Assembly: GCA_011369465.1 (NCBI GenBank)
Contig: DRQG01000078.1
Coordinates: forward strand, 1-39,448
Reading direction: 5' to 3'
DNA length: 39,448 nt
DNA from: Caldithrix abyssi
GTDB taxonomy: Bacteria; Calditrichota; Calditrichia; Calditrichales; Calditrichaceae
Position 1 is the first letter of the stretch. Every line of letters starts with the position of its first letter. Position numbers and translations under genes: made by a program. The notes under the pieces were generated by a model. It was given only the letters and a program-made list of their open reading frames with translations, did no database searches and was not told the DNA's origin. Positions 15,738 to 20,452 of the stretch are shown piece by piece.

Positions 15738-17219
15738 ATGGCCGATATTAAAGCCAACGATTATATCAGCGATTACAAAATCCTCAGTAAATACAGCGAA
15801 GGCGGCATGGCCCTTATTTACAAGGCCCTTCAGCCGTCCCTCAAACGCACGGTCATCATCAAAAAACTAAAAGACCCCAACCGCGAAATTATCCGCCGTT
15901 TTAAAAAGGAAGCCCTGATCAGCGCTTCGTTCCATCAGGAAAATCTGGTGGCTATTTATGATTTTTTATACATTGACCGGGCTTACTATCTGGTGATGGA
16001 ATTTGTGGACGGAGAAGATTTGCGCACAGTGATCGATCACACGGCCCCTTTGCCGGCCTATCTGGCGGCCTTGATCGTGCTAGGCATCGCCCGCGGTCTG
16101 GAATACACCCACGCCCGCAATATCATTCACCGCGATATCAAACCGAGCAATATTCTGATTTCCTACGGCGGAGATGTTAAACTGATCGACTTTGGCGTGG
16201 CCAAGGATGATATTTCCACCCGCCTGACCATGACCGGCATGATTGTGGGCACGCCGGCCTATATGTCCCCGGAACAGGCCAACGGGGACCCCCTCTCGGC
16301 CCGCAGCGATCTTTTTTCGCTCGGTATTTTATTGTACGAAATGCTGACCGGTGTCAAGCCCTTTTACGGGGAAAACAACACCGAAATTCTGGCCAAAATC
16401 GTCCGCAACCGTTACGTGCCTCCGGAACGCATCAATCCGCGTATTCCTTTTCGCCTGCGGCGGATTATAAAAAAAGCGCTGCGCAAAGACCCGGCCCGGC
16501 GTTACCGCAACGCCACCGAACTTATCCACGATCTGGAGCTGTTTATTCCCTGGCAGCTGCGCAGCCGGCGCAAAGAACAACTGGCCGACTTCTTAAGCCG
16601 CATGGACAAAACCAAAACCAACACCTTTAGCGAAAACATCAACCTGTCCCTGTATTCGGGCAGGCGTTTGTGGACCTGGCGGCTGCTGCGGGGCGCCGTG
16701 GCCGCTGCCGCGCTGTATCTGATCGGTTTTCTTTCCTGGCAGTTCCGGGATCATCAACTGGGTTATCTGAATGTGCTTACCGAAGAAAAAGCGGCCACAG
16801 TAAAACTGGACGGACGTCAGCCCCTGAGCCTTTCCGCCGCGTCAGCGGTCATCGGCCCGCTGCGCCGGGGCCCGCACCGTGTGGAAATCAGCGATTCCAG
16901 CGGACAGCGGTTTTTTATAACCACGGCGCATATCCCTGCAGCCGATACCCTGCGGCTGCGCGCCCGTTTTACCCAGCTCGACGCACCGGTTCGCATCTCG
17001 GTTTCCACCTTTCCTCCGGCGGCCGAGGTCTTCGTGGACGGTTACCCGGTTGGCTATTCTCCCCTGTACAATCTGCCCGTGGAACCGGGCAGCCATATCA
17101 TTGCCGTTAAAAAAGACGGCTACCGGGAAATCAGCGACAGCCATCGCCTGGCGCCGGCCAAAGCCTACAGTCTGCATTATCCGCTGCAGCCGGAGGATAA
17201 GGCGCAGGAGAACAGATAG
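15738..17219 (+). CDS. Membrane Ser/Thr protein kinase with PEGA domain
   Basis: 493 residues from ATG 15738, one base after the P-II-like stop. The kinase domain covers about 10-275: an altered Gly loop (YSEGGMALIYKA, first and third Gly replaced by Ser and Ala), Lys42 or Lys43 in TVIIKKL, HRDIKPSN with Asp133, DFG with Asp151, and TPAYMSPEQ. A single transmembrane helix lies near 312-337. The extracytoplasmic part ends in a PEGA domain (about 417-475; VDGYPVGYSPLYNLPVEPG), a module that is thought to bind surface ligands or proteins. Overall this is a Hanks-type receptor kinase reading an envelope signal. Placed after the EIIA and P-II-like genes with tight spacing, so one signalling operon is likely. 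Confidence 0.92.
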   Translation: MADIKANDYISDYKILSKYSEGGMALIYKALQPSLKRTVIIKKLKDPNREIIRRFKKEALISASFHQENLVAIYDFLYIDRAYYLVMEFVDGEDLRTVIDHTAPLPAYLAALIVLGIARGLEYTHARNIIHRDIKPSNILISYGGDVKLIDFGVAKDDISTRLTMTGMIVGTPAYMSPEQANGDPLSARSDLFSLGILLYEMLTGVKPFYGENNTEILAKIVRNRYVPPERINPRIPFRLRRIIKKALRKDPARRYRNATELIHDLELFIPWQLRSRRKEQLADFLSRMDKTKTNTFSENINLSLYSGRRLWTWRLLRGAVAAAALYLIGFLSWQFRDHQLGYLNVLTEEKAATVKLDGRQPLSLSAASAVIGPLRRGPHRVEISDSSGQRFFITTAHIPAADTLRLRARFTQLDAPVRISVSTFPPAAEVFVDGYPVGYSPLYNLPVEPGSHIIAVKKDGYREISDSHRLAPAKAYSLHYPLQPEDKAQENR

Positions 17220-17236: not shown

Positions 17237-20200
17237 ATGAAATTTATCGCCGATCTGCATATCCATTCGCATTATTCCATCGCCACCAGCAAACAACTCA
17301 TTCCCGAATATCTGGATTACTGGGCGCGGATCAAAGGCATCACCGTGGTGGGCAGCGGCGACTTCACCCATCCGGGCTGGCTGAAGGAATTGAAAGAAAA
17401 GCTGGAGCCGGCCGAAGAAGGTTTGTTCCGCCTTAAAGAACAGTTCCGGCCGCAGGCCCACAGCCTGCCGCTTCCCGCACCAACGGGTCAAACGCGTTTT
17501 ATGCTGACGGCCGAGATCAGCAATATCTATAAAAAAGACGGGCGGCTGCGTAAAGTGCACAACCTGATCTTTGCCCCCGATTTTGAAACGGCGGAAAAGA
17601 TTCAGAGCGCTCTGGCCCAAATAGGCAATATCGCCTCCGACGGCCGACCCATTCTGGGACTCGACTCCCGCGACCTGCTGGAAATCGCCCTCAACTGTTC
17701 CGAGCGCATCTTCTTTGTTCCGGCACATATCTGGACGCCCTGGTTTTCGGCGCTGGGCGCCAAATCGGGTTTTGATTCCATCGAAGCCTGTTACGGCGAT
17801 TTAAGCGATCACATTTATGCCGTGGAAACCGGTCTGTCCTCCGATCCGCCCATGAACCGCATGTGCGGGTTTCTGGATAAATACACGCTCATCTCCAATT
17901 CGGACGCACATTCGCCGGAAAAGCTGGGACGGGAAGCCAATCTGTTTGAGTGCGGCTTATCCTATTCCGACATCACCGAAACGCTGAAAGGACGCGACGG
18001 CGGGCGCTTTTTGGGTACCGTGGAATTTTTCCCGCAGGAGGGTAAATATCATTACGACGGGCATCGTAAATGCAAGGTATGCTGGGATCCTCTGCAGACG
18101 CTGCAAAACGACGGGCGCTGCCCGGTGTGCGGAAAAATGGTTACCGTGGGGGTGATGCACCGCGTGGCCCGTCTGGCCGACCGCGATCACACGGAGATGC
18201 CCGACGGCCAACCGCCTTTTTATTCGCTCATTCCTTTAAAAGAACTGTTGTCGGAATTGTACCGCAGCGGGCCGGCCAGCAAAAAAGTGAGCGAAGCTTA
18301 CCTGCAGCTCATCAAAAAAACGGGTTCCGAATTCAATGTTTTGCTCCATTGGCCGCTGGATGAACTGAGCCGGGTTGCCAACGAATTGCTGGTGGAAGGC
18401 CTGCGCCGCATGCGCAGCGGACAGGTGCGTTTGAGTGAAGGCTACGACGGCGAGTTCGGCCGTATCCGCGTCTTTGACGAAAAAGAACTGCGCAGCATTT
18501 CCAGCCAGACCAAGCTGTTTGCTCCGGCGGTGAAAGAAACGGAAACTGCCTACAACGGCATGCGGCATATTCGTTTTGATATAGCCGAATACCGCCGTTT
18601 GTTTGAGCGGAAACGTCCCAAACAGCTCGATCTGGTGGAGGTGCTGAACGAAAAAAAGGAAGCCCAACGGAAAACGCATCCTTTGCTGGCGCCGCTGAAC
18701 CGGGAACAACGCGCCGCCGTGGAATACGAATCGGGCCCGGCCCGGATAACCGCCGGACCGGGCACCGGTAAAACCCGCGTGCTGACTACAAAAATCGCCT
18801 GGCTGATCAAAGTAAAAAAACAGGAACCCTGCCATATTCTGGCGGTTACCTTCACCAATCGCGCCGCCCGGGAAATGCGCGAACGCCTGCAGATTATGCT
18901 TGATTCGCCGGAACAAAGCCAGGCGCTTACCGTAACCACCTTCCACGCTTTGGGATTTCGTCTGCTGCAGGAGCGTATTGAAGAAACCAGGGTGATTATC
19001 GATGAAACGGAAAAGCAGCGGATTCTGCTGCGTGAGCTGGACTGCCCCGTGGAAGAAGTAAAGGAACAGGCCGCCCGGATTACCCGCTTTAAGCAAACCC
19101 TTACCGGGCCCGAAAAAAGCGGCCATGCCCTGTACCAAAGCTATCAACGCTTTTTGGATGCCCAGCGGCTTTACGATATGGATGATTTGATCAGCCGGCC
19201 GGTTTTTATGCTGAGAGAGTCGCCCGATTTTCTGGAACAGATCAGGGAACGCTACCGCCGGATACTGGTGGATGAATTTCAGGACATCAACGAAGCCCAG
19301 TATCAATTGCTGCGTCTGCTGGCCCCGCCGCCCCGACCCGATTTGTTTGTTATCGGCGATCCCAACCAGGCTATTTACGGTTTCCGCGGGGCTTCCGCGC
19401 AATTTATCCCTCGTTTTGCAGAGGACTATCCGCAGGCCGCCGCGTTTACCCTGCACCAGAGCTACCGCTGCAGCCAGTCGGTTTTACGGGCTTCGCACAA
19501 TGTGGTCGCTTCCGGCCCCATGCTAAAGGGACTGCAGGAAGGCGTCAAGATAACCATCGCCCCGCAGAGCAGCGATAAAAGCGAGGCCGAATTCATCGCC
19601 CGCAGGATCGAACAAATGCTGGGCGGCGTGCGTTTTTTTTCCATAGACAGCGAGGTAAGCGACGGACAAAGCAGCGAAGAGCTGCAGAGCCTGGGCGACT
19701 TTGCCGTACTGGTGCGCACCTCGCGGCAGATGCGGCTGATCGAGAAGGCCTTTGCCGATCACAGCATTCCCTGGCAGTCCGCCGGCGATGAACTGCTGTT
19801 CCACAAAGAACCGCTGCGTTCGCTGCTGGACATTTTGCGCTTTACCGATCAACCCGATCATCCTTATCTGCGCAAGAAATGGACATCCCTTGTCGGACAA
19901 GAACCATCCGCTATGGTCGGCGAACTGGGCGCTTTGCCTTTGAAAGAACGTATTACCCGTATTGCCGCCCTGTTTTTTGCCAGGGAGTTTGACGGAAAAA
20001 CGGATCGACTGGAGGCCCTGCTGCAATTTGCCGGAGATTTTTCCGGGGATGTGAAGGAATTTTTACAGGCGGTCACGCTGGGCAGCTCCATAGACGCCTA
20101 TCAGCCGGACAGCGACAGGGTGGCTTTGCTGACCCTGCATGCCGCCAAAGGTCTGGAATTTAAATGCGTTTTCATTGCCGGCTGCGAAGACGGACTGCTG

Positions 20201-20452
20201 CCCTATGCTCTTTCCGGTACATCGCCCGCCGATACGGAAGAAGAACGACGTCTTTTATACGTGGGGATGACCCGGGCACAAAAATATCTTATATTAACCC
20301 ATAGCCGGCGAAGATTTCTGATGGGTCGTTCATTGCGTATGCGGCGCAGCCCCTTTCTGGACGCTATCGAAAAAGAGCTGATTGACCTGTATAAAAGCAC
20401 TTATACAAAATCGCCGTCCAAAGATACCGGCCAGCTCAACCTGTTCGGATAG
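17237..20452 (+). CDS. Endonuclease Q-like PHP domain fused to UvrD/PcrA helicase
   Basis: 1071 residues. Residues 1 to about 400 match the EndoQ/TIGR00375 family: PHP metal site in DLHIHSHYS (His8, His10), GSGDFTHP (39-46), VPAHIWTPWFSALGAKSGFDS, SNSDAHSPEKLGREAN, and a four-Cys zinc site (Cys279, 282, 295, 298). EndoQ nicks DNA 5' of deaminated bases and abasic sites. From about 490 a complete superfamily 1 helicase follows: Walker A GPGTGKT (507-513), TFTNRAAREM, DEFQD (679-683), GDPNQAIYGFRGA, LHQSYRCS, LHAAKGLEFK and RLLYVGMTRAQ. All helicase motifs look intact. A coupled nick-and-unwind DNA repair enzyme is the natural inference. ATG 17237 is 17 bases after the kinase stop. Fusions of this type probably exist in other bacteria, but I know of no biochemical study of one. 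Confidence 0.92.
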   Translation: MKFIADLHIHSHYSIATSKQLIPEYLDYWARIKGITVVGSGDFTHPGWLKELKEKLEPAEEGLFRLKEQFRPQAHSLPLPAPTGQTRFMLTAEISNIYKKDGRLRKVHNLIFAPDFETAEKIQSALAQIGNIASDGRPILGLDSRDLLEIALNCSERIFFVPAHIWTPWFSALGAKSGFDSIEACYGDLSDHIYAVETGLSSDPPMNRMCGFLDKYTLISNSDAHSPEKLGREANLFECGLSYSDITETLKGRDGGRFLGTVEFFPQEGKYHYDGHRKCKVCWDPLQTLQNDGRCPVCGKMVTVGVMHRVARLADRDHTEMPDGQPPFYSLIPLKELLSELYRSGPASKKVSEAYLQLIKKTGSEFNVLLHWPLDELSRVANELLVEGLRRMRSGQVRLSEGYDGEFGRIRVFDEKELRSISSQTKLFAPAVKETETAYNGMRHIRFDIAEYRRLFERKRPKQLDLVEVLNEKKEAQRKTHPLLAPLNREQRAAVEYESGPARITAGPGTGKTRVLTTKIAWLIKVKKQEPCHILAVTFTNRAAREMRERLQIMLDSPEQSQALTVTTFHALGFRLLQERIEETRVIIDETEKQRILLRELDCPVEEVKEQAARITRFKQTLTGPEKSGHALYQSYQRFLDAQRLYDMDDLISRPVFMLRESPDFLEQIRERYRRILVDEFQDINEAQYQLLRLLAPPPRPDLFVIGDPNQAIYGFRGASAQFIPRFAEDYPQAAAFTLHQSYRCSQSVLRASHNVVASGPMLKGLQEGVKITIAPQSSDKSEAEFIARRIEQMLGGVRFFSIDSEVSDGQSSEELQSLGDFAVLVRTSRQMRLIEKAFADHSIPWQSAGDELLFHKEPLRSLLDILRFTDQPDHPYLRKKWTSLVGQEPSAMVGELGALPLKERITRIAALFFAREFDGKTDRLEALLQFAGDFSGDVKEFLQAVTLGSSIDAYQPDSDRVALLTLHAAKGLEFKCVFIAGCEDGLLPYALSGTSPADTEEERRLLYVGMTRAQKYLILTHSRRRFLMGRSLRMRRSPFLDAIEKELIDLYKSTYTKSPSKDTGQLNLFG

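Follow-up and report, generated by a model that had tools for sequence, protein, structure and literature searches.

A widespread bacterial fusion of endonuclease Q to a UvrD-type helicase, with clamp-binding-like motifs and a predicted role in glycosylase-independent repair

A 39,448-nucleotide stretch of Caldithrix abyssi DNA (contig DRQG01000078.1; hereafter the window) encodes a bacterial endonuclease Q (EndoQ) fused to an SF1A helicase. On balance, this protein probably serves to repair deaminated bases and AP sites independently of a glycosylase – as a clamp-tethered enzyme that would nick damaged DNA and then unwind it. EndoQ has been described as mainly archaeal, with a published bacterial distribution limited to few groups (PMC4357722, PMC6202378), yet the fused form recurs over many bacterial phyla. 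The breadth of the family, two clamp-binding-like motifs, and the lack of a detected UDG-superfamily gene in the source genome all go beyond the preliminary description of this DNA. If the proposed role is correct, bacteria would gain a self-contained, glycosylase-free means of repairing deaminated bases, and the fused motor would supply the downstream step after the EndoQ nick, which has so far only been proposed.

Architecture of the fused protein

The preliminary description placed an EndoQ-like nuclease and a UvrD helicase within one chain. This assignment holds: on the contigs of the source genome the fusion is an intact, uninterrupted frame (Table 1), and both halves are homologous to the proteins named. 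The whole-chain structure prediction that the description had proposed was carried out with AlphaFold2 on a 56-sequence alignment (mean pLDDT 85.6, pTM 0.69). Within this model, Foldseek matched the N-terminal half to PfuEndoQ structures (TMt 0.88-0.90; 0.90 to 5zb8) and the C-terminal half to DNA-bound UvrD (TMt up to 0.76).

Table 1. Features of the EndoQ-UvrD fusion in the window.
Feature	Position	Strand	Basis
EndoQ-UvrD fusion ORF, 1071 aa	17237..20452	+	ATG to stop, no frameshift
Endonuclease Q domain (aa 1-415): PHP catalytic, zinc, and C-terminal helical domains	17237..18481	+	5zb8 match, AlphaFold2 model
H8-x-H10 metal residues (Pfu H8, H10)	17258..17266	+	93/93
E93 (Pfu E76)	17513..17515	+	93/93; PMC8307549
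H108 (Pfu H84)	17558..17560	+	93/93; PMC8307549
H164 (Pfu H139; metal ligand and base-pocket wall)	17726..17728	+	93/93; PMC8307549
G199-L200-S201 lesion pocket (Pfu G169, S171)	17831..17839	+	93/93; PMC8307549
D223-A-H225 (Pfu D193, H195)	17903..17911	+	92/93 and 93/93
Zinc site H276-C279-C295-C298 (Pfu C249, C252, C268, C271)	18062..18130	+	all invariant, 93 sequences
Internal beta-clamp-binding-like motif QTKLF (aa 424-428)	18506..18520	+	conservation, pLDDT <50
Variable linker, nuclease-helicase	18521..18679	+	sequence and length variation; mostly low pLDDT
SF1A UvrD/PcrA-type helicase (aa 482-1050)	18680..20386	+	homology and modelled fold
Walker A GPGTGKT (aa 507-513)	18755..18775	+	motif alignment
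Motif II DEFQD (aa 679-683)	19271..19285	+	D679, E680, Q682, D683 invariant in 56
Reduced 2B subdomain region (~aa 874-955)	19856..20101	+	inter-landmark distance versus genome's own UvrD
C-terminal beta-clamp-binding-like motif QLNLF (aa 1066-1070)	20432..20446	+	conservation, pLDDT <50

Residues 5-385 of PfuEndoQ (5zb8) align to residues 5-415 of the fusion (E=1.4e-53), which covers the whole crystallised length. To compare active sites, we aligned PfuEndoQ with 93 relatives of the fusion. Pfu D42 (also D42 in the window protein) and the H8, H10, E76, H84, H139, G169, S171, and H195 positions listed in Table 1 are invariant in all 93, and the D193 position is kept in 92. The PHP metal residues reported in the preliminary description are thus retained, and the loss of EndoQ active-site residues that it had named as evidence against its reading was not seen upon careful alignment. 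In PfuEndoQ, activity is abolished by the E76A, H84A, and H139A replacements, and normal bases are excluded by a pocket shaped by H139, G169, and S171 (PMC8307549). The description was right about a conserved four-ligand zinc site but wrong about its composition: rather than four cysteines, the ligands are His-Cys-Cys-Cys, with the invariant H276 aligned to Pfu C249. C282 – probably the fourth Cys that was counted – is Cys in only 39 of the 93 relatives. These alignments give good support to the N-terminal half being an EndoQ with its active site preserved. TIGR00375, the curated NCBIfam equivalog for stand-alone EndoQ, matches only residues 102-410 and scores 170.5 bits against a cut-off of 326.6; the fusion falls outside that equivalog as currently defined.

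Over residues 481-1050 the protein is homologous to PcrA, UvrD, and Rep (E down to 1e-70), and the helicase half matches both UvrD-helicase (Pfam, E=3e-64) and UvrD_C. The motif residues Q491, Walker A, DExQD, R717, R744, and T1012-R1013 are invariant in 56 full-length fusions. The helicase had been called a complete UvrD, and this is accurate for the catalytic motifs but not for the surrounding architecture. Compared with the 739-aa UvrD that the source genome also encodes, the stretch holding 2B is ~66 aa shorter (112 versus 178 aa), the stretch holding 1B is ~22 aa shorter (78 versus 100 aa), and the C-terminal tail is absent. Against the pcrA equivalog, the fusion scores 355 bits versus a cut-off of 911.

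The linker around the clamp-like motifs varies widely in sequence and length across fusions. Most of it is modelled at low confidence – with one confident helix at residues 449-459 – which suggests that the nuclease and helicase are flexibly joined. An INFDLxEYRxLK-like motif lies at this helix (residues 446-459; ~18572-18613); it is confidently modelled in the window protein, and its strict pattern occurs in 15 of 56 fusions.

The two clamp-binding-like motifs occupy distinct positions, with QTKLF directly following the EndoQ domain and QLNLF-G (residues 1066-1071) forming the protein terminus. Across 56 fusions, the C-terminal motif retains its Q in 56, its fourth-position L (L1069) in 55, and its F in 50; the internal motif retains F in 55, L in 48, and Q in 44. 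Strict patterns are found in 43 (C-terminal) and 37 (internal) of the 56, versus at most 2 and at most 5, respectively, in 2000 composition-preserving shuffles, which ignore relatedness. The terminal motif is absent from all 29 ordinary UvrDs examined in the phylum. The published beta-clamp consensus is QL[S/D]LF, with Q-phi-x-[L/M]-[F/L] as a looser form (PMC13254535, PMC9690074). QLNLF fits the looser form fully. QTKLF agrees with it in its Q, L, and F, whereas its second residue is not the aliphatic one that the consensus calls for. Consistent with exposed short linear motifs, which are expected in disordered segments, both segments have pLDDT values below 50.

Archaeal EndoQ has a C-terminal PIP box that binds PCNA, PCNA stimulates its activity, and bacterial EndoQ homologs carry beta-clamp consensus sequences at their C-termini (PMC4858679). 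The internal motif thus has a precedent, and the second motif, C-terminal to the helicase, is a new element. The source genome encodes the beta clamp gene DnaN, and we infer from the QxxLF motifs that the fusion may be tethered to the clamp. One stand-alone EndoQ among the relatives (L111; ORF from 5924 on the + strand, 469 aa) has a C-terminal clamp-like motif of its own, with the sequence ending in DGQLQLFL.

Distribution, history, and genomic context

An EndoQ domain is present in 15 of the 40 phylum genomes examined. Thirteen of these encode long frames of 900-1229 aa, one has a contig-edge copy (995 aa), and one has a copy with a stop. The preliminary description had called for a search for the architecture across genomes, and we found that at least 558 GTDB genome-contig stretches encode a relative of the fusion. 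The best 80 of these relatives comprise 55 full-length fusions, 16 that run off the contig end, 1 that is interrupted, and 8 that are stand-alone or split. With the long frame recurring in the phylum and in these full-length copies, the fusion is neither accidental nor a product of misassembly. Relatives were found in Caldithrix/KSB1, Geobacter and other Desulfobacterota, Chloroflexi, Bacteroidales, Spirochaetota, Aminicenantes, Omnitrophota, Elusimicrobia, Cloacimonadota, Neomarinimicrobiota, and Sedimentisphaerales, where single taxon assignments may be wrong because most relatives are metagenome bins; named strains that carry one include Geobacter argillaceus and Mariniphaga sediminis. Among 50,697 phage and 72,556 plasmid records there was no match, and we rejected a phage or mobile-element origin. 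The fusion is old and widespread over many bacterial phyla.

The two domains share a history: pairwise distances in the EndoQ and helicase halves are correlated (r=0.76, whereas none of 2000 permutations exceeded 0.20). The nuclease half has the lower mean pairwise distance (0.59 versus 1.16 for the helicase half). In our trees, stand-alone EndoQs such as L064, L072, L116, and L062 group as sisters of fusions with support of 0.91-0.995. Because these stand-alone proteins nest among fusions, the fusion is ancestral within the sampled set and fission secondary. In L062 and L116 the ends of the stand-alone ORFs keep part of the fusion-type linker (FD-x-x-EY/F), which suggests a recent loss of the helicase. 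Fused helicases form a group apart from ordinary UvrDs, whose clade has support of 1.0; the exception is L100, which lies outside an otherwise supported split (0.94); their strict monophyly was thus nearly but not fully recovered, and we rejected it. A second nuclease-helicase fusion was observed in the genome of one relative, as a 993-aa UvrD-like helicase with an apparent DnaQ-type exonuclease insert (FDLETTG...; L120:2362-5343, - strand).

This shared history bears on whether the two activities work together. UvrD-type helicases work in several pathways, and the fused helicase could act mainly elsewhere – in fork or transcription conflicts or in mismatch repair – with the EndoQ domain as a separate, passenger activity on a long and probably flexible linker. 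However, 13 of the 15 EndoQ-positive phylum genomes encode an ordinary UvrD as well, the fused helicase has no UvrD-like C-terminal tail, and the two halves have been retained together across phyla. We consider independent activities highly improbable and favor a coupled nick-and-unwind enzyme.

Searching to E=10, we identified no UDG-superfamily (PF03167) gene above threshold in the source genome, which is 98.5% complete and encodes EndoV; 38 of the 40 phylum genomes have such a gene. This absence rests on one draft genome and may reflect an assembly gap. We rejected UDG replacement as a general rule: of the 15 EndoQ-positive phylum genomes, 14 also carry a UDG, which weighs against the favored reading in that the fusion would usually add to UDG rather than replace it. 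More tentatively, the fusion could perhaps represent a widespread machine for alternative excision repair – a nickase, a strand-displacing motor, and two clamp anchors – that might replace UDG in organisms such as this one, where UDG is apparently absent.

In the source genome, a Ser/Thr protein kinase with a PEGA domain (15738-17219, + strand) ends 17 bases upstream of the fusion and is possibly co-transcribed with it. Neighbors vary among relatives, and we rejected the idea that the upstream kinase, DUF7309, or M29 genes form a conserved operon with the fusion. Weighing against the favored repair role, no repair gene was consistently adjacent in the relatives' neighborhoods, where a search for shared neighboring ORFs yielded mainly out-of-frame ORFs overlapping the fusion, plus scattered small clusters.

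These neighborhoods also bear on a possible role in anti-phage or anti-plasmid defence, in which the nuclease would attack foreign DNA containing uracil or altered bases and the helicase would unwind it, as in Gabija. The helicase half gives hits to GajB helicase profiles, as any UvrD-like protein would, and an antiviral role suggested for Bacillus EndoQ is mentioned in a review (PMC8307549). Arguing against this role, the scanned neighbors in the window match only generic kinase and HTH profiles, which led us to reject a defence island, and no conserved defence neighborhood was recognised. The lack of phage and plasmid matches, the slow evolution of the nuclease half, and clamp-like motifs that indicate the host replisome point the same way. 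A defence function thus seems very unlikely, and we continue with repair as the favored role.

A proposed nick-and-unwind pathway

Domain identity, residue and motif conservation, and breadth are observed features of the family; from them we infer clamp binding, nicking, and unwinding, with nicking followed by strand displacement within one chain as a plausible order. One or both QxxLF motifs would dock in beta-clamp pockets and hold the enzyme near sites of replication or repair. The EndoQ domain, given its intact catalytic and pocket residues, would then flip out a uracil, hypoxanthine, or AP site and nick 5' of the lesion. Characterised EndoQs have been demonstrated to nick in this manner, with a free 3'-OH on one side of the nick and a 5'-phosphate strand carrying the lesion on the other. 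Because the lesion is left at the downstream 5' end, a 3'-to-5' motor that tracks the undamaged strand from the nick would displace exactly the lesion-bearing strand. A clamp-bound polymerase could next extend the 3'-OH, with a flap or single-strand nuclease removing the displaced strand and ligase sealing the nick. The predicted outcome is a form of excision repair in which deaminated bases are removed with no need for a glycosylase. For the step after the nick, PolB has been proposed to carry out strand-displacement synthesis in archaea, followed by Fen1 cleavage (PMC4858679). In bacteria, a fused helicase tethered to the clamp could take over this displacement.

The order of events could, in principle, be reversed, with the helicase opening or scanning DNA – behind the fork or on the clamp, for example – and feeding single-stranded DNA to the EndoQ domain. 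The 2B subdomain of Rep and UvrD is linked to helicase autoinhibition; the shortened 2B region of the fusion could lessen such autoinhibition, and the linker modelled as flexible would give the nuclease freedom to act in this order. PfuEndoQ also cleaves uracil and hypoxanthine better in ssDNA (PMC11354406). Nevertheless, EndoQ binds duplex DNA, bends it, and shows a preference for AP sites in dsDNA (PMC8307549, PMC11354406), so that a motor would be unnecessary for recognition. We therefore regard unwinding before nicking as unlikely and retain nicking followed by unwinding.

The preliminary description knew of no study of such a fusion. The open-access full texts searched likewise yielded no account of an EndoQ-helicase fusion or its biochemistry, though subscription papers may mention one.

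Relation to known systems

The fusion shares features with several characterized systems. As in Gabija (GajA nuclease plus GajB), a nuclease is coupled with a UvrD-like helicase, though in the fusion an EndoQ PHP nuclease takes the place of GajA, a single chain carries both activities, and no defence context was seen. As in AddAB, RecBCD, and AdnAB, a helicase and a nuclease would act jointly. The nuclease of those complexes is RecB-type and end-processing, whereas that of the fusion is of another kind and is a predicted lesion-specific nickase. RecB also binds the beta clamp (PMC13254535).

With the SF1A helicases UvrD, PcrA, and Rep, the fusion has in common all helicase motifs and the modelled fold. 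It differs from them in its reduced 1B and 2B, in its lack of the UvrD-type C-terminal tail, and in having an N-terminal nuclease and a C-terminal clamp-like motif. With PfuEndoQ, TkoEndoQ, MacEndoQ, and the Bacillus pumilus EndoQ, it shares a full-length EndoQ domain, the PHP metal residues, the residues of the uracil and hypoxanthine pocket, and a clamp-binding-like motif right behind the C-terminal helical domain – the archaeal counterpart of which is the PIP box. Unlike these EndoQs, the fusion has an HCCC rather than a CCCC zinc site, a helicase downstream, and a second clamp-like motif at its new C-terminus.
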